From Kiloniellales bacterium (GTDB lineage: Bacteria; Pseudomonadota; Alphaproteobacteria; Kiloniellales; JAKSBE01): a stretch of DNA of 64,000 nt. Of this stretch, positions 34,196 to 56,551 are shown piece by piece. Position 1 is the stretch's first letter. The number at the start of each line of letters is the position of its first letter. Location: NCBI GenBank assembly GCA_030066685.1, contig JASJBF010000031.1, positions 124,001 through 188,000 of the forward strand, given 5' to 3'. Under the pieces are notes generated by a model. The model saw only the letters and a list, made by a program, of their open reading frames with translations. It was not told the DNA's origin and ran no database searches. Position numbers and translations under genes: made by a program.

Positions 34196-34271
34196 TGTCA
34201 TGCCCGGGCTTGACCCGGGCATCCATGGCGCAGCGGCACGATGGATTGCCGGGTCAAGCCCGGCAATGACA
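34196..34271. repeat. Interspersed palindromic repeat, copy C
   Basis: Starts TGTCATGCCCGGGCTTGACC and ends GCCGGGTCAAGCCCGGCAATGACA, with internal ATCCATGGCGCAGCGGCACGATGGAT. It is the most symmetrical of the three copies. Located between the terminator and livH. Confidence 0.8.
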
Positions 34272-34322
34272 GAGTGAGGGGGAGCAGGGCGGCTTCCCAA
34301 CCCTCAGGCAGATCCCCGATCG

Positions 34323-35195: not shown

Positions 35196-35197
35196 CG

Positions 35198-36945: not shown

Positions 36946-37633
36946 GGGTCTGACCAGCCACTACGGCCGCATCCAAGCGCTCAAGGGCATCGACCTGGAG
37001 ATCGCCCAGGGCGAGCTGGTCGCCCTGGTCGGCGGCAACGGTGCCGGCAAGACCACCCTGCTGCGCACGCTCTCGGGCGTGCAGCCGGCGAGCGGCGGCC
37101 GCGTCACGTTCCGCGATCGCGACATAACCCGGGCCAGCCCGGCGGCGCGGGTCGGGCAGGGGATCTGTCAGGTCCCCGAGGGCCGGCAGGTCTGGGGCCC
37201 GATCTCGGTCGAGGACAATCTCAAGCTCGGCACCGCAAAGCGCCGTGGTCCCGACATCGCCGCCGACCTGGAGCGCATGTACGCGATGTTCCCAGTGCTG
37301 AAGGAGAAGCGCGGCCAGGCCGCCGGCACGCTGTCGGGCGGCCAGCAGCAGATGCTGGCGCTCTGCCGGGCCCTGATGGCCAATCCGGAGCTGCTGCTGC
37401 TCGACGAGCCGAGCATGGGGCTTGCTCCCTTGCTGGTCGACCAAATTCTGGAGGCGGTCCTGGCCTTGAAGTCCAGGGGCGTAACCGTCTTCCTGGTCGA
37501 GCAGAACGCCTTCGCTGCGCTCAAGATCGCCGACCGCGGCTACGTCATCGAGACCGGCAGGATCGTACTTTGCGACAGCGGCCGGGCCCTGCTCGACAAC
37601 GACCGGGTCAAGGAAGCCTACCTCGGGATCTAG
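36932..37633 (+). CDS. Branched-chain-type ABC transporter ATP-binding protein (LivF)
   Basis: GTG start at 36932 with AGGAGGAG inside the end of livG; 233 residues. Walker A is GGNGAGKTT, signature LSGGQQQ, Walker B LLLDEPSMGLAP, and PEGRQVWGPISVEDNL is the LivF-type Q-loop neighbourhood. It completes the importer that follows the paa genes. Conservation is high, so the assignment is safe; the substrate is not. Confidence 0.92.
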   Translation: MLRVEGLTSHYGRIQALKGIDLEIAQGELVALVGGNGAGKTTLLRTLSGVQPASGGRVTFRDRDITRASPAARVGQGICQVPEGRQVWGPISVEDNLKLGTAKRRGPDIAADLERMYAMFPVLKEKRGQAAGTLSGGQQQMLALCRALMANPELLLLDEPSMGLAPLLVDQILEAVLALKSRGVTVFLVEQNAFAALKIADRGYVIETGRIVLCDSGRALLDNDRVKEAYLGI

Positions 37634-42288: not shown

Positions 42289-43812
42289 CTATGTTGTTTC
42301 CCGGGAGCCTTCTCCCAGGGCGTGATTAATCTCGGTGAGCTTTCGGCGGGCGTCGTCGTAGAGGGAGAAGAGCCGGGCATAGGTGGCCTGGCCCTGGGGG
42401 TCCGGGTTGGCCGCGGCGACGACCGTTGCGCAACGGGCGGCGTCCCGTGGCGAGGCGAAGACCCCGACGCCGAGGCCGGCGACCAGGGCGGCGCCGAAGG
42501 AGGCGTCGCCGTTGCCGGGCTGCAGAATCGGCAGTCCGGTGGTGTCGGCGATGATCTGGCGCCAGGTCGCGCTACGGGCGCCGCCGCCGAGCAGGCGCAG
42601 GGCGCCGAACTCGGCGCCCGAGAGGCGCCTGGCCTCGCGCAGTACGTCGGTCAGGGCCAGAGCGATGCCTTCGTAGCAGGCGCGGGCGAAGTGCGCGCGC
42701 TCGTGCGCGAGCGTCAGCCCCAGGAAGTCGCCGCGCAGCTTCGGATCCCAGTGCGGCGCCCGCTCGCCCTGCAGATAGGGATGGAAAAGCAGGCCCTCCG
42801 AGCCCGGCGGGACCGCGGCGGCGAGGCGGTCCATCTCGGCGAAGGCGGTCTCGGGATCGAGGTCGGCGAAGAAGCGATCGCGGACCCAACGGTGCGCCGT
42901 GGCGCAGGCGTTGATGCCCGAGGCCATGTACCACATGCCCTCGACGATGTGCGGGTAGCAGGAGACCGGCGGATGCACCTCGGGGCGGTCGACCGCGAGG
43001 AAGACGACGCCTGCGGTCGCCAGCTTGATCGCGCCTTCGCCGGGCGTCACCGCGCCGCAGCCGAAGAGCTCGACCGTGGTGTCGTTGGAGCCCACGACCA
43101 CGGGCGTGCCGGCGGCGAGGCCCGTGGCCCGGGCCGCCGCCTCGGTGATCCGCCCGGCGATGTCCTGCGGGCGGGCCACCGGGGGCAGGGTGCTCGTGGG
43201 CCAATCGATCAGAGCGCAGAGCTCGGGCGACCAGTCCCGCGTCGTCGCGTCGGCCATCAGGGCGCCGACGACGTCGGAGAAGTCGGTGGTCCAGTCGCCG
43301 GTCAGGCGGCTGCGCAGGTGGTCCTTGGCGATGTAGAGACGGGCGGTCCTGTCCGTGACCTCCGGCTCGTGCCGCTTAAGCCAGGCGAGTTGAGCCAGGG
43401 TCCAGGTCGGGTTGGCCCGGTTCAGCGAGCGCTCGACGATCTCCGCGCCAGCCCGATCGTGTAGGTCCTTGGCCTCGGCGGCGCTGCGCTGGTCGTTCCA
43501 GAGAATCGCCGGGCGCAGCACCTTGCCGTCCGAATCGGTCAGCACCGCGATGTGGGCGCCCGCCGAGATCCCGACCGCTGCAACGTCGCTGGCTTCAACC
43601 TTGCCGGCGGCCAGGGCCGCGGGCAGGGCGCCGCACAGTGCCGTCCACCAGTCCTCGGGATCCTGCTCCGACCAGCCGGGCTTGGGATTCCGGGTCGCGA
43701 CGGGCTTGCTGGCCTCGCCGATCGGGCCGCCGGACTCGTCGAGGATCGTGGCCTTGAGGCTGCCGGCCCCGAGGTCGATGCCGAGCAGGTAGGTCCGTTT
43801 CTTGCACGCCAT
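42289..43812 (-). CDS. FGGY-family carbohydrate kinase, xylulokinase-like
   Basis: A 507-residue sugar kinase. The N-terminal phosphate loop is YLLGIDLGAGSLKATILDESG, GWSEQDPEDWW and ILWNDQRS follow, the second domain has VGSNDTTVELFGCGAVTPGEG, and the C-terminal RLLGGGARSATWRQIIADTTGLPI closes the FGGY signature. The start MACKKRTYLLGID at 43812 was preferred to an ATG 36 bp upstream. The length and motifs fit D-xylulose kinase or a related polyol/ketose kinase. It is 7 bp after an SDR dehydrogenase that could supply the ketose. Confidence 0.88.
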   Translation of the reverse strand: MACKKRTYLLGIDLGAGSLKATILDESGGPIGEASKPVATRNPKPGWSEQDPEDWWTALCGALPAALAAGKVEASDVAAVGISAGAHIAVLTDSDGKVLRPAILWNDQRSAAEAKDLHDRAGAEIVERSLNRANPTWTLAQLAWLKRHEPEVTDRTARLYIAKDHLRSRLTGDWTTDFSDVVGALMADATTRDWSPELCALIDWPTSTLPPVARPQDIAGRITEAAARATGLAAGTPVVVGSNDTTVELFGCGAVTPGEGAIKLATAGVVFLAVDRPEVHPPVSCYPHIVEGMWYMASGINACATAHRWVRDRFFADLDPETAFAEMDRLAAAVPPGSEGLLFHPYLQGERAPHWDPKLRGDFLGLTLAHERAHFARACYEGIALALTDVLREARRLSGAEFGALRLLGGGARSATWRQIIADTTGLPILQPGNGDASFGAALVAGLGVGVFASPRDAARCATVVAAANPDPQGQATYARLFSLYDDARRKLTEINHALGEGSRETT

Positions 43813-43819
43813 GCCTGGC

Positions 43820-44593
43820 CTATTCCGCGGTGACGTAGGCCGAGGCAATGCCGCCGTCGACCAGCCAGCCGGCGCCGGTGACGTAGCTGGCCGCGTCGGA
43901 GACCAGGAAGAGCGCGACCTCGGCGACCTCCTCGGGCTTAGCGAAGCGGCCCATCGGCATGTGGACCCGGCGCCGCTCCAGCTTCTCCGGCGTGTCGAAG
44001 AGCGCGTCGGTCATTGCCGTGCCGACCGGGCCCGGGCAGAGCGCGTTGGCGCGGATCCCGGCACGGCCGTACTGCACGGCGATCTCCCGGGTCAGGGCCA
44101 GTACGCCGCCCTTGCTGGCGGTGTAGGCGAGCTGCGGCTCGGCGGCCCCCATGTAGGCGACCAGGGAGGACATGTTGAGGATCGCGCCGCCGCCGCTGCG
44201 CCTAAGGGCCGGGATCTCATGGCGGCAGCATAGAAAGACCCCGGTCAGGTTGACCGCCAGGGTCTTGTGCCAGATCTCGAGCGGCGTGTCCTCCGGGCCC
44301 CGGTCCTCGGCCAGCATGATTCCGGCGTTGTTGAAGGCGATGTCGAGGCCGCCCAGCGCCCCCTCCGCGGCCGCGACCATGGCCTGGGCCGAGGCCTCGT
44401 CGGAGACGTCAACTTGAATCTCTGTCGCTTCCCCGCCCGCGGCCCGGATCTCGGCGGCGACCGCCTCGACGGCCGCCAGGTCGAGGTCGGCCAGCGCGAG
44501 CGCGGCGCCTTCGCGCGCGAAACGCCGCGCCGACTCCTGCCCGATGCCGGCGCCGGCCCCGGTGATCAGGGCCCGTTTGCCTTGCAAGCGCAT
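43820..44593 (-). CDS. Short-chain dehydrogenase/reductase
   Basis: A 257-residue SDR with Rossmann motif TGAGAGIG (residues about 11-18), NNAG, Ser-Tyr-Lys active site (NMSSLV, YTASKGG) and the C-terminal VTGAGWLVDGG. GGGAGGC is upstream of ATG 44593. The long open frame further upstream is antisense noise from the ligase gene. Together with the FGGY kinase it may oxidise a polyol and phosphorylate the ketose. Divergent from the ligase gene. Confidence 0.9.
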   Translation of the reverse strand: MRLQGKRALITGAGAGIGQESARRFAREGAALALADLDLAAVEAVAAEIRAAGGEATEIQVDVSDEASAQAMVAAAEGALGGLDIAFNNAGIMLAEDRGPEDTPLEIWHKTLAVNLTGVFLCCRHEIPALRRSGGGAILNMSSLVAYMGAAEPQLAYTASKGGVLALTREIAVQYGRAGIRANALCPGPVGTAMTDALFDTPEKLERRRVHMPMGRFAKPEEVAEVALFLVSDAASYVTGAGWLVDGGIASAYVTAE

Positions 44594-44653
44594 GTCGCCT
44601 CCCGGGTTTTCCTCGAAGCTATCTTGCGCGACTTGGCGCTTGCAACATATTGT

Positions 44654-44667
44654 TTGGCACATGCCAA
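44654..44667. promoter_or_regulatory. Inverted repeat TTGGCA-CA-TGCCAA in divergent promoter region
   Basis: A 14-bp near-palindrome with perfect 6-bp arms lies 59 bp upstream of the ligase gene and 61 bp upstream of the SDR gene, next to an AT-rich AACATATTGTT. It is a likely site for a LacI-like or other dimeric regulator acting both ways. No regulator gene is adjacent. Confidence 0.5.
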
Positions 44668-44725
44668 CCTGGGCGCGCAGCGGCGCGCCGCAAGGAAAAA
44701 GAAACCGCAGGGCAGGGAGGGGACC

Positions 44726-46054
44726 ATGGCCGGCGATCAGGTCACGACGATGATGGCGGCGTTGAAGAAGATGCAGGCGCGTTACCTGCGCTTCGAGCTG
44801 CCGGATCTCCACGGTACCAGCCGGACCAAGGTGGTCCCGATCGACAAGGTCGAGGCCTATGCCCGCAAAGGGCTGAACTTCTATGGCGGCACCATTGGCC
44901 TCGACAGCGCCTCCGGCGTGATCGGCGGCACCGGCGTCGCCGAGGAGGTCGCCTACCGCGACCAGAGTCTGATCCCCGATCCTTCGAGCCTGCGCCCGGT
45001 GCCCTGGCTGCCCAGCACGGCCAAGGTGGTCTGCGATGCCCAGTGGGGCCCCGGCGCGCCGATCAAGGCGACGCCGCGCAGCGTGCTGCGCGGCCTGCTC
45101 GAGGCGGCCGCCGAGCTGGGCTACGACGTCATGATGGGCCACGAGTTCGAGTTCTACCTGCTGGACCCCGAGACCAGGCAGCCGCTGTTCGGCGGGGTGC
45201 ATATCTTCAACGCGACCCGGAACCAGTACCTGCCCTTCCTGGACGGCCTGCTCGACACCCTGCAGGCGGCCGGGATCGACGTCATCACCCACAACTGCGA
45301 ATACTCGCCCTCGCAGTACGAGATCAACTTCGGCCCCGGCATCGGCTTAGAGGGCGCGGACAAGGCCTTCACCTTCAAGAACGCGATTAAGGAGCTGGCC
45401 CACCGCAACGGCCTGCTGGCCACCTTCATGTCCAAGCCGGCCAGCGACATGGCCGGCTGCGGCTGCCACGTCCACGTCAGCCTGATCAACCGAAAGACCA
45501 GGAAACCGGTCTTCTACAAGAAGGGCGTGCCCGACGGCCTGAACGACGAAGTCCGGGCCTTCACCCGCGGCATCCTGGATCACGCCAAGGCGATCCAGGC
45601 CCTGATCGGGCCGACGCCGAACTGCTACCACCGCCTGAAGCCGCACACCTTCGCGCCCTCCAACATCTCCTGGGGGATCGAGGACCGGACCGCCATGGTC
45701 CGGATCAAGGACCCGGGCGAGGCCAACTGCCACATCGAGATGCGCGCCGCCTCGGGCCTCTCGAACCCCTACCTCTCGGTCGCCGCGGTGATCGCCGCCG
45801 GCCTGCTCGGTCTGAAGGGCAAGGGCAAGCTGCCGGCCCAGTCCAAGGGCCCCTCGGAAGACGATCCCAAGCACGAGAAGCTGGCTGGCAGCCTGGAAGA
45901 GGCGCTGGACGCCCTGGAGGCGGACAAGCCCCTGCGAAAGCTGTTGGGCGAGGACTTCATCCAGCTCTTCATGGCGGTGAAGCGCGCCGAACTGGCCCGC
46001 TTCCGCAGCCACGTCACAGACTGGGAACGCAACGAGTACCTCGAGGTCTACTGA
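44726..46054 (+). CDS. Glutamine-synthetase-like ligase (type I fold, GlnT/PuuA-like)
   Basis: A 442-residue glutamine-synthetase superfamily enzyme. The metal/ATP-site motif MGHEFEFYLLDPE (about residue 137), ITHNCEYSPSQYEINFGPG, and the ammonium-site neighbourhood ACGCHVHVSL / FAPSNISWGIEDRTAMVRI are visible. GGGAGGGG precedes the ATG. It is shorter than GlnA and lies away from glnB/ntr genes. It therefore more likely ligates glutamate (or another acid) to an amine in a catabolic or assimilatory branch, such as gamma-glutamyl-amide formation. Which amine is unknown; the divergent kinase/SDR gives no direct clue. Confidence 0.88.
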   Translation: MAGDQVTTMMAALKKMQARYLRFELPDLHGTSRTKVVPIDKVEAYARKGLNFYGGTIGLDSASGVIGGTGVAEEVAYRDQSLIPDPSSLRPVPWLPSTAKVVCDAQWGPGAPIKATPRSVLRGLLEAAAELGYDVMMGHEFEFYLLDPETRQPLFGGVHIFNATRNQYLPFLDGLLDTLQAAGIDVITHNCEYSPSQYEINFGPGIGLEGADKAFTFKNAIKELAHRNGLLATFMSKPASDMAGCGCHVHVSLINRKTRKPVFYKKGVPDGLNDEVRAFTRGILDHAKAIQALIGPTPNCYHRLKPHTFAPSNISWGIEDRTAMVRIKDPGEANCHIEMRAASGLSNPYLSVAAVIAAGLLGLKGKGKLPAQSKGPSEDDPKHEKLAGSLEEALDALEADKPLRKLLGEDFIQLFMAVKRAELARFRSHVTDWERNEYLEVY

Positions 46055-46147
46055 GCGGCCGGAACAGCACGCCACCTCGCGACCACTCTTTCGCCGCAGT
46101 GCCCGGACAGGCTGCCTCGCCGGAATGCAAAGGAAGGCCTGTTCGAA

Positions 46148-47023
46148 ATGAGCAAGCGATTTGGCGTCCGTGCCATCTGCATCGCCGCTGGCGCTGCAGC
46201 CTGTGCCGGGCCGCCGGCCGTCTACGGGCCCTGCCGCTTCGACACGGCGTCGATGAGCTTTGCCGGGGACGCACAGGCGCAGGCCCGCTGCCTGCTGCGT
46301 CCGGTCGGGGTCTGGAAAGAGCTGGGTCCGGTCCACGACCGTCTGCCCGAGGTGCTGGAGCGGACAGTCGATGCCCCGCTGCCGCTCGGCAAGGCGGCAT
46401 TTCGGGCCTATCTGGCGCGGCAGGGCCTGTCGGAGAGCGAGCTCGGCGGATCCCTGGACAGCCGGCTGTCGCGGTCGCAGGACGATGCGCTCTGGGGCGC
46501 GCCGGCGCGCTACTTCGTGCTGCACGATACCAGTGCGCCCTATTTCGGGGCCGCGCCCTTCCCGGTGGCGCTCGACCGGGACCCGCGGGTCAACCGGCTG
46601 GACGGCTACCGCAGCGCCGAGCCGGTGGCGCATGTCTTCATCAACCGCCGGGGCGAGGTCTATCTCGGGCACGACTTCCTGGAGCCCTGGCGGGCGACCA
46701 AGCTGGAGCTCAACCGGCACGTCGGCGAGCCCGCAAAGGGCCTCTTCCTCCATGTCGAGCTGGTGCAGCCCCGCCGGCGCCATCCCGACGGCGACCCGGA
46801 CAACGACGCCCTGGCGCCCGACCCAGGGTTTTCACGCCTCCAGTACCGCCGCTTGGCGGAGCTCTACCTCGCGGCCTCCCTGCGCGCCGACCGCGGACTG
46901 ATCCCGGCCTTCCACGCGGTGCTGGACAAGGGCTTCGAGGACGGCCACGACGATCCGCAGAACTTCGACCTCGGCGCTTGGGCCGCCGAGATCGAGGCTG
47001 TGCTGCGCGAGGCCGGCCCTTGA
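46148..47023 (+). CDS. Exported protein with N-acetylmuramoyl-L-alanine amidase-like fold
   Basis: A 291-residue protein with a weak export signal or lipobox at the N-terminus (IAAGAAACAGP). The middle resembles an Amidase_2/peptidoglycan-recognition domain: YFVLHDTSAPYF, HVFINRRGEVYLGHD, FLHVELVQPRRR and HDDPQNFDLGAWAAEI, giving possible metal-binding histidines. The match is pattern-based and distant. It probably acts on or binds cell wall material; not certain. Transcribed independently after the ligase gene. Confidence 0.55.
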   Translation: MSKRFGVRAICIAAGAAACAGPPAVYGPCRFDTASMSFAGDAQAQARCLLRPVGVWKELGPVHDRLPEVLERTVDAPLPLGKAAFRAYLARQGLSESELGGSLDSRLSRSQDDALWGAPARYFVLHDTSAPYFGAAPFPVALDRDPRVNRLDGYRSAEPVAHVFINRRGEVYLGHDFLEPWRATKLELNRHVGEPAKGLFLHVELVQPRRRHPDGDPDNDALAPDPGFSRLQYRRLAELYLAASLRADRGLIPAFHAVLDKGFEDGHDDPQNFDLGAWAAEIEAVLREAGP

Positions 47024-47045
47024 GGGCTGAGGCCGGTATTGACGA

Positions 47046-47222
47046 TCAGGACTGGTCGGTCAGGCGCCCGGTTTGCGCGATTTCGACCATGGTCTCCAGG
47101 CGCACGAGACGCTTGTCGATGTCGATGGTGCGCGCGGAAAGGGTCTCGGTGGCGGCGTTGAGGCGCGTGACCTCGTCGGTCAGCTTCAAGACGTCCAAGA
47201 GGATGTCCTTCCAGCTCGCCAT
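47046..47222 (-). CDS. 58-aa helical protein coupled to a ribbon-helix-helix-like gene
   Basis: Reads MASWKDILLDVLKLTDEVTR and on through SARTIDIDKRLVRLETMVEIA; it is almost entirely helical with heptad-like Leu/Ile spacing, probably a coiled-coil. Its ATG overlaps the stop of the upstream gene (TGATG), so it is translationally coupled to it. The two short genes look like a compact pair. Function not known. Confidence 0.6.
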   Translation of the reverse strand: MASWKDILLDVLKLTDEVTRLNAATETLSARTIDIDKRLVRLETMVEIAQTGRLTDQS

Positions 47223-47443
47223 CAGACCCCTCTTTTGCTGAGAGCTTGCAGGGTCTTGCTGACGGCGAAGTTGGCCCGGCGCGTCGAGGCAATCGCTTCC
47301 TGAAGACGTTCCGCGACCAAGGCCATGAGGTCAAGAGAGTCCAAGGTCTCGGCATCCTGGGAGTCGAAGGATTCAATCGCTTGGCGCAGGATTTCGGAAG
47401 CCGAGGTGCCGCGTTCGGCCGCTATGCGTTCAAGGCGTTTCAC
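47222..47443 (-). CDS. Ribbon-helix-helix-like small DNA-binding protein, possibly N-terminally truncated
   Basis: Using GTG 47443 it gives a 73-residue protein, KRLERIAAERGTSASEILRQAI, which is the helix-turn-helix half of a CopG/Arc ribbon-helix-helix protein. The N-terminal beta strand is missing from this start. Codons upstream in frame continue family-like (LIFPAT) but are closed by an in-frame TAG at 47465-47467, four codons after an ATG at 47479. The gene may be mutated, or may start at a non-standard codon. The pair with the coiled-coil gene resembles a small regulatory or antitoxin-type module. Confidence 0.55.
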   Translation of the reverse strand: MKRLERIAAERGTSASEILRQAIESFDSQDAETLDSLDLMALVAERLQEAIASTRRANFAVSKTLQALSKRGV

Positions 47444-47535
47444 GGTTGCCGGAAAGATAAGGAACTACTTCCCAAGCATTTTCTCGACGACCGCCAAGGG
47501 ACACCTCCGAGATCGAGCCGCTATCAATCATGCGC

Positions 47536-47554
47536 ATACACATCAGTATACACA
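47536..47554. promoter_or_regulatory. Tandem ATACACA repeats upstream of the RHH-like gene
   Basis: ATACACA occurs at 47536-47542 and again at 47548-47554, 12 bp apart, about 95 bp before the RHH-like start. RHH proteins commonly bind tandem short repeats one helical turn apart, so this could be its operator. Short sites of this length also occur by chance. Confidence 0.3.
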
Positions 47555-47588
47555 CTCTGGGTGAAACTATTAACGCTGCGGGCCGCGC

Positions 47589-48077
47589 CTATTCCGCCGC
47601 CAGGCTGCCGCTGCGGCCAGGGAGTTCGCCGCGGATGACGTAGGCCAGGGTGCGAACGACCTGCTCGGGGGTTGCGCAGACGGCGAGGGCGGCGGCATCG
47701 ACCTCCTTCAGGGCGTGGTTCAACGCGGGATCGTGGAGCGTGATCAGGGCCTTGCCCTGGGCCGCTGCCACACCGGCGTCGAAGGCGGCGTTCCATTGCC
47801 GGTACTTGTCGCCGAAACGGACCACCACGACGTCGGCCTCGCCGATCAGGGTTCGGGTCCGGATGGCGTTCATCGCCGCGCCCTTGCGGTCGTGCCAGAA
47901 GGTCTTGTCCTCAGCGCCCAGGATCACGGCGCCGCAGTCGTCGCTGTCCGCGTGGACGCAGACCGGCGCGTCCATGCGGACCGGGAGGCCGGCCTCGCGA
48001 ACGCCCTCGGCGATCCGGGCCCGCCAGTCGCTGTGGATTTCTCCGGAAAGGTAGACCTTCCACTCACGCGCGCTCAT
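47589..48077 (-). CDS. YtoQ family protein
   Basis: A 162-residue protein beginning MSAREWKVYLSGEIHSDWRARI. It contains ADVVVVRFGDKYRQWNAAFDAGVAAAQGKALITLHDP, the diagnostic segment of the YtoQ family, a nucleoside 2-deoxyribosyltransferase-like fold. The family has no firm function. The upstream frame extension is noise. Separate from the RHH pair. Confidence 0.88.
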   Translation of the reverse strand: MSAREWKVYLSGEIHSDWRARIAEGVREAGLPVRMDAPVCVHADSDDCGAVILGAEDKTFWHDRKGAAMNAIRTRTLIGEADVVVVRFGDKYRQWNAAFDAGVAAAQGKALITLHDPALNHALKEVDAAALAVCATPEQVVRTLAYVIRGELPGRSGSLAAE

Positions 48078-48151
48078 GACCTTGTTGTCTCCCTTTGAAA
48101 GCCGATTAAGTCGAGCAAGACCTAATCGCAGCGCCGCCGCCGCGCAAGCGG

Positions 48152-48625
48152 CTAGGCCGGCAGAGACATCCGAACGATCTCTATCGGCGGCGTTTCGGCG
48201 CTGCCATGCGAGGAAAAGCCCTTGCCGGTCGCGACGAAGCCTCGCTGCTCGTAGAAGGACACGGCGTTGAGCAAGGATTCCAGGACGACGGCCCCCTCGT
48301 GGCCCTCGCGGGCCAGGCGGACCCCGATCCGCAGCAGCCGGCTGCCGATTCCACGGCCGGCCGCCTTGGGCAGGACGAAGAGGCGGGTGATCTCGCCGGG
48401 CCCGGCGTCGACGTAGCCGACGACCTCGTTGCCCAAGTCGGCGACCCGGATGCGCCCGGCCTGAACTCCTTCGCGGTAGGTCTCCGGGCTGCAACCCTGC
48501 ATCCAGGCCGCGACTTGCGCCGGGGCGTAGTGCCCCTTGGCCAGGCCGGCGAAGGAGTCCCGGGTGATCTCGCAGATCGCCGCCAGATCGGCGGCGCGGC
48601 CGGGTCGGATCAGCAGGTCCGTCAT
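48152..48625 (-). CDS. GNAT family N-acetyltransferase
   Basis: A 157-residue GNAT protein starting MTDLLIRPGRAADLAAICEI. The acetyl-CoA loop is RLFVLPKAAGRGIGSRLLRIGVRLA, and the C-terminal part is NAVSFYEQRGFVATGKG. ATG 48625 was preferred to 48658 because homology begins there. Acceptor substrate unknown. Confidence 0.88.
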   Translation of the reverse strand: MTDLLIRPGRAADLAAICEITRDSFAGLAKGHYAPAQVAAWMQGCSPETYREGVQAGRIRVADLGNEVVGYVDAGPGEITRLFVLPKAAGRGIGSRLLRIGVRLAREGHEGAVVLESLLNAVSFYEQRGFVATGKGFSSHGSAETPPIEIVRMSLPA

Positions 48626-48747
48626 CGACAGCGGATCCCGGGTCGAAGGGCTGCGCATTCGGGCTATCCTCTGCGCAGGTGCTTGAGAAGCCCTGAGGAG
48701 TCTGGGCCCGTTCCGGCACCAGGTCCAGCGCGCGGGGGAGGATAGGC

Positions 48748-49392
48748 ATGCTCACGCTTTGGGGTCGGCGCAGCGCCTTCAACGTGCAGAAGGTGGCCTG
48801 GCTGATCGGCGAGCTGGGGCTCGCCCATCGGCAGGTCGAGGTCGGCGGCGCCTTCGGCGGTCTGGACGATCCAAAGTTCCTAGCTCGGAACCCCCATGGC
48901 CGGGTGCCGGTGATCGACGACGGCGGCAGGGTGGTCTGGGAGTCCCACAGCATCCTGCGCTATCTGGCCGCCCGCCATGGCAGCGAGGCGCTCTGGCCGC
49001 ACGATCCCGGCCTCCGTTCCCTGGCCGATCGCTGGATGGACTGGGCCCAGACCACCCTGCAGCCGGACTTCATGGATCTCTTCTGGGGCTTCTACCGCAC
49101 GCCCGCGGCCCAGCGCGACTGGGGGGCGATCCGGGCAGCCAAGGCGCGCCTGGAGGCCCACTACCGCGTGCTGGATCGGGAGCTCGCCGAGCGGGACCAT
49201 TTGGCCGGTCCGGACTTCACCCTGGCCGACATACCTGCGGGTACGACGCTTTACCGCTACTTCGCGCTGGAGATCGACCGGCCAATGCTACCAGGCCTAG
49301 CGGCTTGGTACCGCCGGCTCTGCCAACGTCCGGCCTACCAGACCCATGTCATGCAACCTTTTGATGAGCTGCTGGGCCGACTCGACTACTGA
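48748..49392 (+). CDS. Glutathione S-transferase family protein
   Basis: A 214-residue GST. The thioredoxin-fold N-domain includes RRSAFNVQKVAWLIGELGL and the glutathione-binding NPHGRVPVIDDGGRVVWESHSILRYLA. The helical C-domain contains LAGPDFTLADIPAGTTLYRYF. GGGGGAGG precedes the ATG. Typical of proteobacterial theta/beta-like GSTs of detoxification; specific substrate unknown. Confidence 0.92.
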   Translation: MLTLWGRRSAFNVQKVAWLIGELGLAHRQVEVGGAFGGLDDPKFLARNPHGRVPVIDDGGRVVWESHSILRYLAARHGSEALWPHDPGLRSLADRWMDWAQTTLQPDFMDLFWGFYRTPAAQRDWGAIRAAKARLEAHYRVLDRELAERDHLAGPDFTLADIPAGTTLYRYFALEIDRPMLPGLAAWYRRLCQRPAYQTHVMQPFDELLGRLDY

Positions 49393-49821
49393 AACCAGGC
49401 TGTGGATAACCTTGTCCCCGGTGTCTTGCAGCCCTGAATTTTTTCCTTCGATCTAACGAGACCGTCGGAAAAACCCCTTTATCCATCTGTTTTAAGGCCG
49501 ATATATCGCAGGCATATTTTGTGCTCGCGTCGGGAATAAACCTTATGTACCATTGTTTATAGAGTGAAGTTCGTCGCCGGACAGATTCTTTTTGGGGTGT
49601 TTGGTCAGGGTATTGTCCGGTACCGGACTGGCGAAGGGCGCTTCCAGGAGGGAGGCGCCCTTTCGCTTGTCCGGGCGTGATCGCAGATCCCGAGAGCCGC
49701 ATTGCCCGAAAGGCGAGAGCCACCGCTCACCGCTGTCAAACCATCTTCGCCCGATAGGCCGGCTTTGCCATATGACTGGCGTTGTTCGACCAGACGTGAA
49801 GGCGTCTGATCGGGAAGTGCG
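49393..49821. other. 429-bp AT-rich gap with hairpins, candidate small transcript
   Basis: No protein gene. 49430-49570 is markedly AT-rich, including TTTATAGAG-type stretches that could be a promoter. It is followed by the perfect palindrome GTCCGGTACCGGAC (49615-49628) and then a terminator-like hairpin. The order promoter-like/hairpin/terminator allows a small RNA of about 100-150 nt, but no known RNA family is recognised. Confidence 0.4.
49631..49666 (+). terminator. Long-stem terminator-like hairpin
   Basis: GCGAAGGGCGCTTCC and the later GGAGGCGCCCTTTCGC pair over about 15 bp with one G-T pair and one bulged T, loop AGGAG. It may end transcription of the GST gene or of a small RNA, or work in both directions against the DeoR gene. 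The T-tract is short, so rho-independence is not certain. Confidence 0.6.
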
Positions 49822-50613
49822 TTAGGCGGCCAGGGTTACCTTCACCCCGGCGGCGGCCAGGGCCTCGGCCAGGGCCGCCGGCGGGGGCCGGTCGGTGATC
49901 ACGTCGGTCAGGCTGTCCAGGGGCGCCACCACCTCCAGCAGCGGAACCTGAAACTTGGCGTGGTCGACCAGGAAGACCCGCCGGGCGGCCCGCTCGAACA
50001 TCGTCCGCTTGATCCAGGCCGCGTTGGAATCGACGTCGGTGATGCCGCCGCTGGTCAGGCCGCCGGCGCTGGTCAGCGCCACGTTGGCGTGGAAGCGACG
50101 CAGGAAGTCGCAGGCGTCCTGGCCGTAGACCCCGTCCTCCCGCGCCGCATAGCTGCCCGGGCAGAGGATGACCCGGATCCGGTCCCGGGATCCGAGGCTG
50201 TGGGCGATCTCGAGGCCGTTGGTGATCACTGTGATCTCGGGCTGCGCCAGGGCGAGCTGGCGGGCCAGGTGAAGGGTGGTGGCGCCGGAATCGATCATCA
50301 CCACGTCGCCTGGCGAGACCATCGCCGCCGCGACCCGGGCGATGCGCTCGCGCTCCGTCACCATGGCGGTGCTGCGCTCGTGGACCGCCGGCTCGCGGCC
50401 CATGGGTGCCGCCGCCCCGCCGTAGGTCCGTGCCACCAGTCCGCGGCTCGAGAGGTCGTCGATGTCCCGCCGCACAGTCTCGGTCGAGACCCCGAAGACC
50501 TGGGCCAGGTGCGAGATGCGCACGGTCGGGTTGGAGCGCAGCTCGGCGATGATCCGCTCGTGTCGCTGGGCCTTGACCAGGCGCCCGCCGCGGCGCTGCT
50601 CGGGGCCGCTCAT
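49822..50613 (-). CDS. DeoR/GlpR family transcriptional regulator
   Basis: A 263-residue DeoR-type protein. The HTH is at residues about 18-60 (RHERIIAELRSNPTVRISHLAQVFGVSTETVRRDIDDLSSRGLV). The sugar-phosphate-sensing DeoRC domain has MIDSGATTLHLARQL and VFLVDHAKF. The start shares ATGA with the stop of the upstream TIM-barrel gene, so both come from one mRNA. It is divergent from the polyamine-type ABC operon. Two inverted repeats upstream of the TIM-barrel gene are candidate targets. Confidence 0.9.
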   Translation of the reverse strand: MSGPEQRRGGRLVKAQRHERIIAELRSNPTVRISHLAQVFGVSTETVRRDIDDLSSRGLVARTYGGAAAPMGREPAVHERSTAMVTERERIARVAAAMVSPGDVVMIDSGATTLHLARQLALAQPEITVITNGLEIAHSLGSRDRIRVILCPGSYAAREDGVYGQDACDFLRRFHANVALTSAGGLTSGGITDVDSNAAWIKRTMFERAARRVFLVDHAKFQVPLLEVVAPLDSLTDVITDRPPPAALAEALAAAGVKVTLAA

Positions 50614-51275
50614 GCGCAGGCGGCCACGATGTCTTGGATCTGGGAGTTCAGCGCTCCCTTGCGCGGCGAGAAGGAGCCGTCGAAGGCGGCCGAGCCGATG
50701 GTGAAGGCGTCGGCACCGGCGTCGCCCAGCTCCCGGATCCGCTCCGGCGAGTTCACGCTGCCGGCGACCACCAGCCAGCCCCTGGTTGCCCCGCGCGCGG
50801 CCCGCACCAACTCGAGGGGATCGGCGTCGGTCGCCCGGTAGGCCAGCAGGTCGACGCCGGCGCAGCCGATCTCCTCGAAATGTCGGCAGTGCGCGGCGAT
50901 GTCCTGGGGCGAGCCGCCGAGCTCGGTGGGATGGCCGAGCGGCCTGCCGGGAAAGGGGAAGTACTCGATGCCGCTGCCGTCCAGGACCTCGAGAATGGCT
51001 TCGGCCTGGGTCCCGCCCATGACCCGGTCGACACCGATGTCGAGCGCCGCCCGGGCCGAGGTCAGGCAGGCGGCCTCGCTCTCGCTGACGACCTCCAGGT
51101 AACTGGTCGCGCCGCTGTCCTTGATCCGGCGGTTGAGCTCCTTCAGCGTCGGCCGATCGGCGCCAATGTCCTTGAAGCCGATGTGGCGCAGGCCCGCGTG
51201 CCGGATCTGCTCGAAGACCTCCAGACAGTCCTCGACCGTCTGGTCGGCCCGGGTCAGCATGAAGATGAACTCCAT
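50610..51275 (-). CDS. TIM-barrel protein of unassigned function
   Basis: A 221-residue protein, no signal. It reads like a (beta/alpha)8 barrel with a C-terminal phosphate-binding pattern: GWLVVAGSVNSPERIRELGDAGADAFTIGSAAFDG. Earlier strands are MEFIFMLTRADQTVEDCLEVF, HIGFKDIG, SYLEVVSESEAAC, DRVMGG and GVDLLAYRATD. The closest look-alikes are HisA/HisF-type and ribulose-phosphate-epimerase-type barrels, but catalytic residues of those are not evident. Coupled to the DeoR gene (ATGA overlap) and divergent from the transporter/dioxygenase operon, so it probably acts on a phosphorylated or ring intermediate of that pathway. Function unknown. Confidence 0.7.
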   Translation of the reverse strand: MEFIFMLTRADQTVEDCLEVFEQIRHAGLRHIGFKDIGADRPTLKELNRRIKDSGATSYLEVVSESEAACLTSARAALDIGVDRVMGGTQAEAILEVLDGSGIEYFPFPGRPLGHPTELGGSPQDIAAHCRHFEEIGCAGVDLLAYRATDADPLELVRAARGATRGWLVVAGSVNSPERIRELGDAGADAFTIGSAAFDGSFSPRKGALNSQIQDIVAACA

Positions 51276-51387
51276 CGCTCGGCTTCCCTGTGTCCCCGGA
51301 CGCGGTCCCGCCTTTGCGGACCCGCAGTCGCGGATCGTGGCTTTGCGTTCTTGTTGCGCCAGTTATCGCAGATAAATGTGGTAGACA

Positions 51388-51424
51388 CAACAATCCGTGT
51401 TGGAATCACCACGTAAATCGTGGT
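51388..51424. promoter_or_regulatory. Two identically built inverted repeats 21 bp apart (candidate DeoR operators)
   Basis: CAACA-ATCCG-TGTTG at 51388-51402 and ACCACG-TAAAT-CGTGGT at 51408-51424 both have perfect arms and a 5-bp spacer. Their centres are 21 bp apart, two helical turns. They lie in the divergent gap between the TIM-barrel/DeoR unit and the ABC operon, 104 bp before the binding-protein start. Control of both directions by DeoR is inferred. Confidence 0.6.
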
Positions 51425-51528
51425 ACTTTCATCACAAGCAAAAGGCAGGCTTGCGCTTCGTTCTGGCGGGCGCAGGATAGCTGTCAAAGGTCCGCAAGCG
51501 ACCTCAGTTGAGCAGGGAGACCGACACC

Positions 51529-52665
51529 ATGAATTTCGACCGACGGGACTTTCTCGGCCTGTCCGTGGCCGGCGGCGCCTTGGCATTGGCCGGCCCCTTG
51601 GCTCGCAACGCCAGGGCGGCGCGCGAGAAGGAGCTGAACATCCTTTGCTGGGAGGGCTACAACTCCGACGAGGTGCTGGATCCCTTCCGGCGCCAGACCG
51701 GCGCCAAGGTCTCGGCGGAAAGCGGGACCTCGGATCCCGACATGATCAACAAGCTGCGCGCCGGCGAGGTCAACGTCTGGGACGTGATCAACGTCAACCA
51801 GCCCTGGGCGCGCGAGCAGATGTGGCCGGAAAAGCTGATCAAGCCGCTCACCAAGGAGCGCTTCGAGCCCTTCTTCGGCGACATGATGGCGCCCTTCGAC
51901 AAGGGCTACAAGTGGTCCTACGCCGACAGCGGGGAGCTGATCGGCATCGTCCAGCGCTTCGGCCCCTTCAACTTCGTGGTCAACACCGACAAGGTGAGCC
52001 GCGCCACGGCCGAGGACGAGGGCTTCGACCTCTTCAACGAGGCCTCCAACGCCAAGAAGTATGGCATCCTCACCTACGACAATTGGAACATCTATCACAT
52101 GTGCGTCGGCGCCGGGGTCGACCCCTTCGCCAAGCACAGCCAGGCCGAGATCGACGCCTTCGAGAAGATCGCGCGGGCCTGGTTCAAGGGCGCCAAGCTG
52201 CTGACCGACGACCTGGTGGCCATGAACCTGGCCCTGATCAACGGCGAGATCGACTTCTACCTGACCGGCGGCACCTACACCGCCTCCCCGGCCCGCCTGG
52301 ACGGCGCCACCAACATCCGCGGAATCACGCCCAAGCGCGGCCCGATGAACGGCAAGGGCGGTATCGTCTGGGTCGAGGTCACCTCGGTGGTGAACAACCC
52401 GCAGGTCTCGCCGTTGGCCGAGGACTTCTTGGCCTACGTGCAGGAGCCCGAGGCCTGCCACGCGGTGGCCTTCGCGGAAGGCACCTACAACCCGGTAACA
52501 CAGATGGGCAATCCCAAGGTCTTCGAGCGCTTCAGCAAGGACGAACTGGACGCCATCCAGTGGGACAGCCTGGAAGAGGAGATGGCCAACTCGGTCGACT
52601 ACCAGATCAACCCCGACTACGAGGTCATGGACAAGATCTACAACGCGGCCAAGCGTGAAGCCTAG
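51529..52665 (+). CDS. Polyamine-type ABC transporter substrate-binding protein (PotD/PotF-like)
   Basis: A 378-residue periplasmic binding protein with a Tat signal (FDRRDFLGLSVAGGALALAG). Mature part: LNILCWEGYNSDEVLDPFRRQTGAKVSAESGTSD, then DVINVNQPWARE. These are features of spermidine/putrescine-type SBP_bac_8 proteins. Start 51529 has AGGGAG upstream. Polyamine-type systems often import opines or other cationic/amino compounds, so the exact ligand is open. A strong hairpin follows the gene before the ATPase. Confidence 0.9.
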   Translation: MNFDRRDFLGLSVAGGALALAGPLARNARAAREKELNILCWEGYNSDEVLDPFRRQTGAKVSAESGTSDPDMINKLRAGEVNVWDVINVNQPWAREQMWPEKLIKPLTKERFEPFFGDMMAPFDKGYKWSYADSGELIGIVQRFGPFNFVVNTDKVSRATAEDEGFDLFNEASNAKKYGILTYDNWNIYHMCVGAGVDPFAKHSQAEIDAFEKIARAWFKGAKLLTDDLVAMNLALINGEIDFYLTGGTYTASPARLDGATNIRGITPKRGPMNGKGGIVWVEVTSVVNNPQVSPLAEDFLAYVQEPEACHAVAFAEGTYNPVTQMGNPKVFERFSKDELDAIQWDSLEEEMANSVDYQINPDYEVMDKIYNAAKREA

Positions 52666-52690
52666 ACCGGTTTGATCGGGGGGACGGCAG

Positions 52691-52717
52691 GGGAGGGCCG
52701 CCTATGGCGGCCTTCCC
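52691..52717 (+). terminator. Intercistronic hairpin after the binding-protein gene
   Basis: GGGAGGGCCGCC / GGCGGCCTTCCC pairs over 12 bp with one G-T pair and a 3-nt loop (TAT), 25 bp after the stop of the binding-protein gene and 33 bp before the ATPase gene. No long U-tract follows, so it is more likely an mRNA-stabilising or partial-termination element than a full terminator. Confidence 0.65.
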
Positions 52718-52750
52718 TTCATTTCGCGGCGGCGGGGAGAAAGCCTAGCG

Positions 52751-53806
52751 ATGCCTGAGCCTATCCTGCGGCTCGTCGGCGTGAAGAAGCGCTTCGGCAG
52801 CTTCGAGGCGGTGCGGGACATCGACCTCGACATCGTCGAGGGCGAGTTCTTCACCATCGTCGGCCCCTCGGGCTCCGGCAAGACCACCCTGATCCGCATG
52901 CTGGCCGGGCTCGAGGCGCCGAGCGAAGGCGACATCCTGCTGCGCGGCGCGCGGATCAATGAGCTCTCCGCCAACCAGCGCCCGACCTGCATGGTCTTCC
53001 AGTCCCTGGCCCTGTTTCCCCACAAGACGGTCGGTCAGAACATCGAGTTTCCCTTGAAGATGCGCGGCGTCGACCCGGAAGCGCGCCGGACCCGCTGCCA
53101 TCAGCTGATGGACCAGCTACGCCTGCCGCGCGACTTCTACGGCAAGTCGGTCAAGCAGTGCTCCGGCGGCGAGCGCCAGCGGGTCGCCCTGGCCCGGGCC
53201 CTGGCCTTCGACCCCGAGATCCTGTTCTTCGACGAGCCGCTCTCGGCCATCGACTTCCGGCTGCGCAAGATGCTGGAGAAGGAACTGAAGGACATCCACA
53301 AGGACACCGGCAAGACCTTCGTCTACATCACCCACTCCCTGGAGGAGGCCATGGTGATGTCCGACCGCATCGGCATCATGCGGGCCGGCAGCCTGGTCCA
53401 GGTCGGGGCGCCGGACGAGATCTACAGCCGGCCGGCCAGCCGCTTCGTCTCGGAGTTCATGGGCGAGGTCAACGTCCTGGAGGTCGAGGCGAACGGGCAA
53501 GGGCTCTACTGCGCCGGCCTTCAGACCGTCCTCCAGGCCCCGGCGGCGGAGGGCTTCGAGAGCGGATTCCTGGTGATCCGGCCGGAATACCTGCGCTTCC
53601 TCGGCGAGGGCGAGAGCGCCGACAACCGGGTCGAGGGCGTGCTCTACAACGAATACGCCCTGGGTTCGCGGATCCAGTACCAGGTCCGGGTCGGCGGCCA
53701 GGTCTTCATCGTCGAGAAGCTGCGCGAGCAACGCTACCGCGGCGACCTGGACGACCGGGTCACCATCGGCTGGGACGCACGCGACAGCGTGCTGGCGCCG
53801 GAATGA
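52751..53806 (+). CDS. Polyamine-type ABC transporter ATP-binding protein (PotA-like)
   Basis: A 351-residue ATPase. Walker A GPSGSGKTT is at residues 38-46, signature CSGGERQRVALARAL, Walker B ILFFDEPLSA, and a C-terminal TOBE domain (FLVIRPEYLRFLGEGE). It overlaps the next permease gene by 4 bp (ATGA). It energises the importer. Confidence 0.93.
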   Translation: MPEPILRLVGVKKRFGSFEAVRDIDLDIVEGEFFTIVGPSGSGKTTLIRMLAGLEAPSEGDILLRGARINELSANQRPTCMVFQSLALFPHKTVGQNIEFPLKMRGVDPEARRTRCHQLMDQLRLPRDFYGKSVKQCSGGERQRVALARALAFDPEILFFDEPLSAIDFRLRKMLEKELKDIHKDTGKTFVYITHSLEEAMVMSDRIGIMRAGSLVQVGAPDEIYSRPASRFVSEFMGEVNVLEVEANGQGLYCAGLQTVLQAPAAEGFESGFLVIRPEYLRFLGEGESADNRVEGVLYNEYALGSRIQYQVRVGGQVFIVEKLREQRYRGDLDDRVTIGWDARDSVLAPE

Positions 53807-54714
53807 CCGCCCTTGGCCAGGACCTGTCGGTCTCCGCCGCGCCGCCGCGCCGCGGCGCCTGGCCGGCCTGGCTGCGCAGCCCGGGCGTGCTCTGCGCCCT
53901 GCCGATGCTGGTCTTCCTGGCGCTCAGCTTCGCCGCGCCCCTGCTGACCGTGCTCGGCTACAGCTTCCTGCCGCCGCGGACCTTCGACTTCGGCCAGGGA
54001 CTGACCCTTGAGAACTACGCCGACGTCCTGGCCGAGAGCTACTACTTGTCCTTCGCCAAGTCCCTCGGCCTGGCCCTGGCGACCGTGGCCCTGCTGCTCC
54101 TGGTCTCTTGGCCGATCGCCTACGGCATGGCCAAGATTTTCGGGGCTTGGGCCAATTGGCTCACCCTTTTTCTCGTCATTCCGCTCTTCGTTTCTGAAAA
54201 CATTCGGCTCTTTGGCTGGGTTCTCTTCCTGATCAAGGGCGGGGTGCTGCTCGGCGGCCTGGAGACCTGGCTGGGCATCGAGTCAGACGGCCTGATCTAC
54301 AACGTCGGCGCCATCATCCTGGGCCTGGTCTACGTCTATCTGCCCTTCATGCTTTTCCCGATGGTCCTGGGCATCTCGATGATTCCCCAGGACGCGACCG
54401 AGGCCGCCGAGGACCTGGGCGCCTCGCGCTGGCAGGTCTTCCGCGAGATCGAGCTGCCGCTGGCCATGCCGGGCCTCCTGATCGGTTGCCTGCTGACTTT
54501 CATCCTTTCGTTGGGGTCCCTGGCCGAGTCCAAGATCCTAGGCGGCCAGGCGGTGATCATGATCGCCGACGAGATCGAGACCGCCTTCACTTTCGGCCAG
54601 AACTGGCCCCTGGGCTCGGCGCTCTCGGTGATCCTGATCGTTTTCTCCGGGACCCTGGTGATCACCCTGCTGCGCTGGCTCGACCTCGACCGCATCCTGG
54701 GGCGCCGGACATGA
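53803..54714 (+). CDS. Polyamine-type ABC transporter permease (PotB-like)
   Basis: A 303-residue inner-membrane permease starting MTALGQDLSVSAAPPRRG. Six membrane helices and the EAA loop EAAEDLGASRWQVFREIELPLAMPG are visible. It overlaps the ATPase stop and the following permease start by ATGA each. It forms the channel with the next gene product. Confidence 0.92.
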   Translation: MTALGQDLSVSAAPPRRGAWPAWLRSPGVLCALPMLVFLALSFAAPLLTVLGYSFLPPRTFDFGQGLTLENYADVLAESYYLSFAKSLGLALATVALLLLVSWPIAYGMAKIFGAWANWLTLFLVIPLFVSENIRLFGWVLFLIKGGVLLGGLETWLGIESDGLIYNVGAIILGLVYVYLPFMLFPMVLGISMIPQDATEAAEDLGASRWQVFREIELPLAMPGLLIGCLLTFILSLGSLAESKILGGQAVIMIADEIETAFTFGQNWPLGSALSVILIVFSGTLVITLLRWLDLDRILGRRT

Positions 54715-55517
54715 CCCGGCGTCAAGCCAAGCGGCTGACCCACGGCCTGATCGCGGTCTGGACCGCCGCGATCCTGATCTTCCTCTACCTGCCGATCCTT
54801 TGCGTCGGCCTGGCCTCCTTCTCCAAGGCCCGCTACTTCCGCTTCCCGATCCTGCGCTACGACACCACCTGGTACGAGAAGGCCTTCTCCTCGCTCAGCG
54901 TGCGCGAACTGGTCTCCACCTCGCTGACCATCGCGCTGCTGGTCGCCCTGACCTCGGTCCTGCTGGCCTTCTTCGGCGCCCTGGCCTTTGCCCGCTTCGA
55001 CTGGCGCGGCCGGCGGCTCTACCAGCGGATCATCCTGCTGCCGATCTTCTTCCCCCAGGCGGTCCTGGGCCTGGCCCTGCTGATCTGGTTCTCCTCGGTC
55101 GGGATCATCCCGGACTGGCGCACGGCGGTGATCGCCCACCTGGTGTGGATCACGCCGATCGTCACCCTCGTGATCTCGATCCAGGCCTACAGCTTCGATC
55201 CGGCCCTGGAGGAGGCGGCCTTCGACCTGGGCGCGAGCCGCTGGCAGACCCTGAAGGAGGTCACCCTGCCGGTCCTGGCGCCGGGCGTGATCTCCGGCGC
55301 GCTCTTCGCCTTCCTCTTGTCCTGGGGCAACTTTCCGCTGTCGCTCTTTACCACCGGCGCCGACCAGACCGTGCCGGAGTGGCTCTACGCCAAGATGGTC
55401 TCGGGCTATACGCCCCTCGTGCCGACTCTGGGGGCCTTGACGACCACCGGGGCGGCGCTGATCCTGCTCCTCGGTTACACCGTGTTCATGCTGACCAGAC
55501 GGGTGCGCGGCGCATGA
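54711..55517 (+). CDS. Polyamine-type ABC transporter permease (PotC-like)
   Basis: A 268-residue permease starting MTRRQAKRLTHGLIAV. EAA loop LEEAAFDLGASRWQTLKEVTLPVLAPG. The longer open frame starting upstream is noise inside potB. It overlaps the dioxygenase gene by 4 bp, binding the enzyme tightly to the transporter operon. Confidence 0.92.
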   Translation: MTRRQAKRLTHGLIAVWTAAILIFLYLPILCVGLASFSKARYFRFPILRYDTTWYEKAFSSLSVRELVSTSLTIALLVALTSVLLAFFGALAFARFDWRGRRLYQRIILLPIFFPQAVLGLALLIWFSSVGIIPDWRTAVIAHLVWITPIVTLVISIQAYSFDPALEEAAFDLGASRWQTLKEVTLPVLAPGVISGALFAFLLSWGNFPLSLFTTGADQTVPEWLYAKMVSGYTPLVPTLGALTTTGAALILLLGYTVFMLTRRVRGA

Positions 55518-56551
55518 CACCGCGGGAGAAGATCCAGCTGGCCCGAAGCCTGCGCGGCAAGAGGCTGGCCCTGGAGGCGGTCCCGGTCGTCGACTTCGGA
55601 CCTTTCCTCGCCGGCGATCTCCGGGCGCGCCGGCGGGTGGCCGAGGAGATCGGCCGGGCCTGCCGCGACATCGGCTTCTTCTACCTGAAGAACCACGGCA
55701 TTCCCGAGGCCCTGGTCGCGGCCAGCTTCGCCGCGGCCAAGCGCTTCTTCGACCAGCCGGCGGCGCGCAAGCGGGAGATCGCGATCGAGAACTCCGCCTG
55801 CCACCGCGGCTACTTCTCGGTCGGCGGCGAGAACCTCGATCCGGAAAAGCAGACCAAAGACGGGGACCTTAAGGAGGGAATCAAGATCGGCCGCGACCTC
55901 GGCCCGGCCCATCCGCGGGTCAGGCAGGGCTTGCCGCTGCATGGCCCGAACCAGTGGCCCGGCGGCCTCCCGGGCTGGCAGGAGGCGATGCAACGCTACT
56001 TCGATGCCCTGGAGGCTCTCGGGCGGCAGATCATGCGGGCCTTCGCGCTCGCCCTCGGCCTTGCGGAAGAGCACTTCACGCCGCTGCTGAGCGAGCCCAT
56101 GACCACCCTGGGCCCGCTGCATTACCCGCCGCAGGGCGGGCGGATCACCGAGAAGCGGATCGGTGCCGGGGCCCACACCGACTTCGGCTGCCTGACCATC
56201 CTGGCCCAGGACCCGGTCGGCGGCCTGCAGGTCCGCAACGCCGCCGGCACGTGGATCGACGCGCCGCCGATCCCCGGGACCTTCGTGGTCAACATCGGTG
56301 ACATGATGGCGCGCTGGACCAACGACCGCTTCGCCTCGACCTATCACCGGGTGATCAACGCCTCGGGCCGGGAGCGCTATTCCATGCCCTTCTTCTTCGA
56401 CCCGAACTTCGAAGCCGAGGTCGCGGTGCTGCCGACCTGCTGCGGCCCAGACGATCCGCCGAAGTACCCGCCGACGACCGGGGGCCAGCACCTGCTGGAC
56501 AAGATCAACGAGACCTTCGAGTACCATCGGGAGAGGCCCCAGCCTCGCTGA
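55514..56551 (+). CDS. 2-oxoglutarate/Fe(II)-dependent dioxygenase (isopenicillin N synthase-like)
   Basis: A 345-residue oxygenase of the DIOX_N plus 2OG-Fe(II) class. The N-terminal PVVDFGPFL and GFFYLKNHGIPEALVAA are typical. Iron ligands are His221, Asp223 (GAHTDFGCLTIL) and His278 (STYHRVIN). The 2-oxoglutarate-binding Arg288 and Ser290 (RERYSMPFFF) are present. Last gene of the ABC operon with a 4-bp overlap. It probably hydroxylates, or by hydroxylation demethylates or deaminates, the imported compound in the cytoplasm. The substrate is unknown. Confidence 0.9.
   Translation: MTPREKIQLARSLRGKRLALEAVPVVDFGPFLAGDLRARRRVAEEIGRACRDIGFFYLKNHGIPEALVAASFAAAKRFFDQPAARKREIAIENSACHRGYFSVGGENLDPEKQTKDGDLKEGIKIGRDLGPAHPRVRQGLPLHGPNQWPGGLPGWQEAMQRYFDALEALGRQIMRAFALALGLAEEHFTPLLSEPMTTLGPLHYPPQGGRITEKRIGAGAHTDFGCLTILAQDPVGGLQVRNAAGTWIDAPPIPGTFVVNIGDMMARWTNDRFASTYHRVINASGRERYSMPFFFDPNFEAEVAVLPTCCGPDDPPKYPPTTGGQHLLDKINETFEYHRERPQPR

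Follow-up and report, generated by a model that had tools for sequence, protein, structure and literature searches.

The question raised by positions 49822-56551 of a 64,000-nucleotide stretch from a Kiloniellales bacterium (positions 124,001 to 188,000 of contig JASJBF010000031.1; hereafter the window) is whether the genes encoded there form one new system, and on what it acts. The original prediction saw in them an undescribed, self-contained route for one specific amine-like compound, with a DeoR-family regulator and a triosephosphate isomerase (TIM)-barrel enzyme facing an ATP-binding cassette (ABC) importer whose last gene encodes a 2-oxoglutarate (2OG)/Fe(II) dioxygenase. The observation stands, and searches of the literature turned up neither the barrel nor this gene combination; however, "one self-contained new system" claims too much, the novelty lying in the barrel family and in its consistent link to triose-phosphate-like chemistry. 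As for the locus as a whole, it may serve the inducible breakdown of one amine-bearing, polyol-like compound, the barrel working on a ketone phosphate that resembles a triose phosphate; this reading of it as a catabolic island falls only a little short of an even chance. The host genome, of ~6 Mb, is alphaproteobacterial, and its nearest named relatives are Kiloniellales/Pelagibius metagenome-assembled genomes (MAGs) and isolates.

The barrel protein counts 221 residues (50610..51275, minus strand), and its AlphaFold2 model is a confident TIM barrel (mean pLDDT 95.2); the closest folds in the PDB are those of 2-keto-3-deoxy-6-phosphogluconate (KDPG) aldolase, HisA/HisF and NanE, with TM scores of ~0.65 and identities of at most 20%. 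In a profile search of solved structures, the protein matched mainly the phosphate-binding β7-β8 half that is common to HisA, DHOD, RPE, IMPDH and GGGPS. Residues K35, D36, E61, H115, P116 and D142 are kept in 70 barrel relatives along with the phosphate loops (A171-G172, T192, G194), and K35, D36, E61, H115 and D142 are invariant in these 70 sequences. Because of the confident model, the fold matches, the β7-β8 profile matches and the conserved loops, the protein is very probably a phosphate-binding enzyme of unassigned family. In an annotated Streptomyces plasmid, the barrel goes by the name "HisA/HisF-related TIM barrel protein". It has the fold and the phosphate-binding β7-β8 loops in common with the KDPG aldolase, HisA, NanE and ribulose-phosphate-binding barrels, and it differs from the KDPG aldolase type in its low identity and in the position of its conserved Lys, which lies on β2 (K35); the Schiff-base Lys of KDPG aldolase sits on β6. 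Two candidates were rejected. A triosephosphate-isomerase-like active site was dropped since K35, E61, H115 and D142 are off the strands known for that enzyme; MfnB (PF04476), an idea prompted by the β2 lysine and triose phosphates, was abandoned as PF04476 finds nothing in the window's genome and does detect the control methanogens, and no MfnB entry stands among the listed structure and sequence matches of the barrel.

Regarding its distribution, one scan of bacterial and archaeal genomes returned at least 552 barrel relatives, of which the best 80 were retained; the genes in the relatives, several of which are MAGs, were called by our own codon-usage procedure. The family is present in Alphaproteobacteria, Actinomycetota and Myxococcota, being carried by 23 of 289 genomes in the sample of the class, 12 of 399 in that of the phylum, and 32 of 63 in the window's order, and no relative was found in viral contigs. 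A distant (33%) stand-alone homologue is encoded on a 42 kb plasmid of Staphylococcus warneri, where it lies between copies of IS257 and close to a gene for a PutP proline symporter (L160:6992-7654; L numbers denote the loci of the relatives).

The company kept by the barrel is what points to its chemistry. Among 111 distinct barrel loci, the close same-strand partners are a glycerol-1-phosphate (G1P) dehydrogenase-like iron alcohol dehydrogenase (29), PdxA (27), a DUF1537 kinase (22), DeoR (21), an FGGY kinase (16) and a HAD phosphatase (7). They recur as modules of a kinase and a dehydrogenase: DUF1537 kinase with PdxA, FGGY kinase with the G1P dehydrogenase-like protein, and APH kinase with a glycerol-3-phosphate oxidase-like flavoprotein, as found with the barrel in L115; in L089, the barrel stands with FGGY, GlpD and G1P dehydrogenase genes. 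In addition, the barrel is fused to PdxA in a protein of 577 residues (L130:8773-10506, adjoining a LysR gene) and to methylglyoxal synthase in L132:9838-10902 as well as in L133, L134, L136 and L157, the L132 fusion passing one methylglyoxal synthase equivalog cut-off (134 vs 84); barrel-cupin fusions also occur. Glycerol-phosphate dehydrogenases produce dihydroxyacetone phosphate (DHAP), and methylglyoxal synthase consumes it. Because operon partners and fusions all belong to chemistry at the DHAP level, the common denominator of these contexts would be a DHAP-like ketone phosphate, or an amino analogue of it made by PdxA, and the tie is consistent.

Genes for a DUF1537 kinase and a PdxA homologue immediately precede that of the barrel in Streptomyces and Rhizobiales, where the barrel is once fused to PdxA. 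This arrangement recalls the DUF1537-kinase/PdxA2 pathways for tetronates (D-threonate/D-erythronate), which lead to DHAP and are not known to include such a TIM barrel. The pair of DUF1537 kinase and PdxA lies next to the barrel in 22 relatives, whereas the window locus has neither gene. DUF1537 kinases have a role in the catabolism of C4 acid sugars,(PMC7954711) by routes that lead to DHAP,(PMC12540250; PMC7954711) which is the end product of the L-threonate route.(PMC12540250) On Rhizobium plasmids (e.g., L158), the stand-alone barrel whose gene directly follows that of PdxA bears the annotation "4-hydroxythreonine-4-phosphate dehydrogenase", a label that looks like one carried over from PdxA neighbours or fusions. 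Other neighbours are of a different kind: an MttB-type trimethylamine methyltransferase gene lies directly upstream of the L132 fusion, and paired PhyH-type dioxygenase genes, of a different 2OG oxygenase family, stand upstream of the same barrel family in L115 and L122, with SoxBDA sarcosine-oxidase genes nearby. Formaldehyde fixation of the HPS-like type, prompted by the dioxygenase, sarcosine oxidase and MttB neighbours, was set aside because the PdxA and DUF1537 contexts do not fit it.

Taken furthest, these contexts might make the barrel the first member of a new enzyme family. It would probably be a class-I-type aldolase or isomerase with a β2 lysine, which acts on DHAP or 3-amino-2-oxopropyl phosphate and has been taken up by several kinase-dehydrogenase pathways, unrelated to one another, across three or more phyla; in Kiloniellales it would complete an undescribed oxygenase-initiated amino-polyol pathway. 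This is possible, but on balance doubtful. Most barrel relatives lie in DHAP-forming kinase/dehydrogenase modules without a dioxygenase, which is present in only ~12 of the 111 loci; for this reason the barrel is not specific to the substrate of this locus, and the "specific" of the original prediction is not sustained. An unlikely but serious alternative takes the barrel as an accessory or damage-control enzyme of general use, drawn into many unrelated pathways to deal with phosphorylated side products or with ketone phosphates like DHAP, so that its presence here would reveal little about the substrate. The very mixed contexts and the orphan barrels agree with it, as do the three different kinase/dehydrogenase modules and the fusions to cupin, PdxA and methylglyoxal synthase; against it, the tight translational coupling of the barrel to DeoR, FGGY, G1P dehydrogenase or PdxA argues for a step of the main route, and the window has a candidate operator that seems pathway-specific.

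This operator candidate is a dyad, GTGGTAGACACAACA-N5-TGTTGGAATCACCAC, at 51378-51412 in the divergent intergenic region of 253 bp, with the pattern GTGG-N6-ACAACA-N5-TGTTG-N6-ACCAC. Its centre is identical in 7 of 7 sites examined between the two arms (window plus six relatives), and a single copy of the core pattern is present in the genome as a whole; this shared centre and this uniqueness favour the operator reading, although taken singly the sites outscore shuffles only moderately (the score is reached by 6 to 84 of 1000 shuffles). The protein that may bind it is the DeoR-family regulator (263 residues; 49822..50613, minus strand), with both HTH_DeoR (4.8e-16) and DeoRC (2.6e-41) domains and conserved synteny. 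DeoR regulators usually sense sugar derivatives,(PMC10580937) with which the sensing of a phosphorylated intermediate would fit. The genes for the regulator and the barrel overlap by 4 bp (50610-50613), in agreement with the coupling originally predicted; all seven genes claimed for the interval were found in place, and four of the five within-arm junctions are 4-bp overlaps, the others being ATPase/PotB (53803-53806), PotB/PotC (54711-54714) and PotC/dioxygenase (55514-55517). The sole non-overlapping junction, between binding protein and ATPase, is a gap of 85 bp.

As for the dioxygenase (345 residues; 55514..56551, plus strand), it has the DIOX_N (2.7e-32) and 2OG-FeII_Oxy (1.8e-27) domains, the HxD...H metal triad and the 2OG-binding Arg, and it is a member of the isopenicillin-N-synthase-like group; H221-x-D223...H278 and R288-x-S290 are invariant across 12 orthologues. 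Its predicted coupling to the barrel is borne out within the order, where 17 of 63 genomes carry members of both the dioxygenase orthologue group and the barrel's close clade, 2 the dioxygenase alone (one of them at a contig end, G680) and 6 the barrel alone (Fisher p ~1e-8, uncorrected for phylogeny). The two genes stay close through several different gene orders: the dioxygenase closes the importer operon in L139 and is followed by isochorismatase and C26 genes, it lies beyond DeoR and adjoins a class-I glutamine amidotransferase (GATase) in L041 and L152, and in L146, where the importer is absent, an FGGY-barrel pair runs divergently from it, with GlnA adjacent. The importer is missing beside the pair in two genomes, in one of them through an internal deletion: L027, from a MAG of the same genus (G679), retains dioxygenase, operator, barrel and DeoR, and only a 46-bp PotC remnant at 95.7% identity is left of the importer. 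Because this sister genome deleted the importer and kept both other genes, the importer appears, by genome comparison, to be dispensable to the dioxygenase-barrel pair.

The importer is encoded on the plus strand and consists of a PotD/PotF-like periplasmic binding protein (378 residues; 51529..52665), a PotA-like ATPase (52751..53806; ABC_tran 8e-32, TOBE_2), and PotB-like and PotC-like permeases (53803..54714 and 54711..55517; BPD_transp_1 4e-13 and 1.8e-15, respectively). DeoR, ATPase, permeases and dioxygenase have Pfam scores far over the cut-offs, and their assignments are secure. The binding protein has a twin-arginine-type start, no Pfam match and only a remote likeness to PotD (profile match to PotD structures, E 2e-8); W41, Y44, D184, W281 and E283 are kept at PotD-like positions. 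By NCBIfam cut-offs, the likeness to PotABCD is one of superfamily (potA 288.7 vs 355.6; PotD 23.5 vs 582), the ATPase also being below the PhnT2 cut-off. An orthologue of the binding protein, 60% identical, is annotated as PotD/PotF family in Agrobacterium fabrum C58; its pAt locus has the same ABC order, a DeoR regulator, an SDR (short-chain dehydrogenase) and an isochorismatase, the latter as in Pelagibius. Unlike the window, the C58 locus has no dioxygenase and no barrel, and its importer is accompanied by a class III aminotransferase and by a kinase that belongs to a different family (APH). Amine-handling neighbours recur in the relatives (GlnA, C26, isochorismatase, GATase, N-carbamoylputrescine amidase, class III aminotransferase, RidA and sarcosine oxidase), and together with the residues of the binding protein they favour an amine as the substrate, probably hydroxylated given the repeated presence of a carbohydrate kinase among the partners. 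Betaine-lipid headgroups and serinol were weighed, and the evidence singles out neither. A second importer of the branched-chain-amino-acid type (periplasmic protein, two permeases and two ATPases) is encoded at 32963-37633 of the window, and in L041 and L107 the barrel cluster has its orthologues (72-82%) as neighbours.

The carbohydrate kinase of the window is encoded outside the interval first proposed. Three genes located 4-8 kb upstream travel with the system, contrary to its description as self-contained: those of an FGGY carbohydrate kinase (42289..43812, minus strand), of an SDR of 257 residues (43820..44593, minus strand; adh_short_C2 1.9e-66), and of a glutamine-synthetase-like (GlnA-like) ligase of 442 residues (44726..46054, plus strand; Gln-synt_C 1.3e-88). 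Orthologues of the kinase, 59-72% identical, are near the barrel in L146, L152, L041 and L113, and others with ~60% identity stand beside it in Acidimicrobiales (Actinomycetota; L048 and L051), in the order C26-barrel-FGGY; the ligase and the SDR, which adjoins FGGY or GlnA in relatives, travel with the kinase (ligase synteny in L113, L139, L146, L147, L089 and L104). Since the three recur near the barrel, we take the system to span 42289-56551, with unrelated genes inserted at 46.1-49.4 kb. The kinase has both FGGY_N and FGGY_C domains and is xylulokinase-like, but its substrate is not fixed by this because the xylulokinase equivalog cut-off (TIGR01312) is barely exceeded (383 vs 380.25). The ligase is below all NCBIfam cut-offs (the best being type III, 271.7 vs 469.6; γ-glutamylputrescine synthetase, PuuA, 234 vs 650), and is a probable γ-glutamyl-amine ligase.

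With these genes at hand, it might be asked whether the locus serves polyamine catabolism proper, i.e., whether putrescine- or spermidine-like diamines are imported and degraded through the γ-glutamyl route (GlnA, C26/GATase, aminotransferase), with dioxygenase, FGGY kinase and barrel as passengers or devoted to a second compound. The PotABCD-like importer, the GlnA-like ligase in the window and in relatives, the C26, isochorismatase and GATase genes of the relatives, and, close to the barrel/dioxygenase cluster of L152 (17373-19669, a possible polyamine island), the genes for a class III aminotransferase and for an N-carbamoylputrescine amidase that passes its cut-off all speak for it, and several of them are shared with the PuuA-PuuD route and its PotFGHI/PotABCD importers. 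On the other hand, no polyamine enzyme or transporter model reaches its cut-off in the window, no PuuB/PuuC-type oxidase/dehydrogenase pair is seen beside the importer and ligase genes, and the barrel stands with FGGY across phyla and with the dioxygenase after loss of the importer; moreover, none of the intermediates in known polyamine routes is phosphorylated, whereas a kinase, DeoR and a phosphate-binding barrel recur here. These three and the dioxygenase also set the locus apart from the Puu type. We regard a polyamine route as distinctly unlikely. It is highly improbable that the barrel serves a biosynthetic pathway (as a HisA/HisF, GGGP synthase or PdxJ/PdxS-like enzyme) and is located here by chance. 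In favour of this, PF00977 (His_biosynth) is passed (31 vs 23.6 bits), and there are weak matches to GGGP/PcrB synthase (20.3 bits vs an NCBIfam cut-off of 247) and to HisA. However, PF00977 is matched over profile positions 49-108 of 228 only and not over the whole barrel, and the matches cover only the generic phosphate-binding half and are spread over HisA, DHOD, RPE, IMPDH and GGGPS alike. In addition, the barrel occurs in catabolic surroundings (kinase, transporter, DeoR/LysR), its family has a patchy distribution (as in the class sample above), and it fits no known full-length family, in line with its original description as unassigned.

Returning to the catabolic island, we infer its steps from gene content, conserved linkage, fusions, conserved residues and operator conservation. 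An amino-alcohol or an N-substituted polyol, for example, would be imported by the PotD-type system; the GlnA-like ligase may protect or activate its amine as a γ-glutamyl amide, and the dioxygenase would hydroxylate the carbon beside the hetero-atom, so that the carbon part is freed. SDR and FGGY kinase would convert this part into a phosphorylated ketose, and the barrel would isomerise or cleave a DHAP-type ketone phosphate to bring its carbon into glycolysis; DeoR, sensing a phosphorylated intermediate, would repress both arms from one shared operator. Several points weigh against this scheme. The substrate is not directly apparent from any of the window's genes; the amine-like ligand of the original prediction is plausible from the PotD-like binding protein, its kept aromatic and acidic positions and the amine-handling neighbours. 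No full-length homologue of known function was detected for the barrel by Pfam, NCBIfam or profile searches; no G1P dehydrogenase orthologue was found in the window's genome, and the C26 hydrolase is encoded there away from the locus. Among the 111 barrel loci, 16 have no close same-strand neighbour and a further 21 no named partner. Finally, only 4 changes of the dioxygenase label occur along the barrel tree, which means that much of its linkage to the barrel is accounted for by common ancestry, and an independent-pairs test of dioxygenase against FGGY was not significant.

In conclusion, a conserved unnamed family of at least 552 relatives gains, through its fusions and operon partners, a testable class of function on triose-phosphate-like ketone phosphates, and the window cluster shows that three nearby genes beyond the interval first proposed, those of FGGY kinase, SDR and GlnA-like ligase, are part of one route with it.

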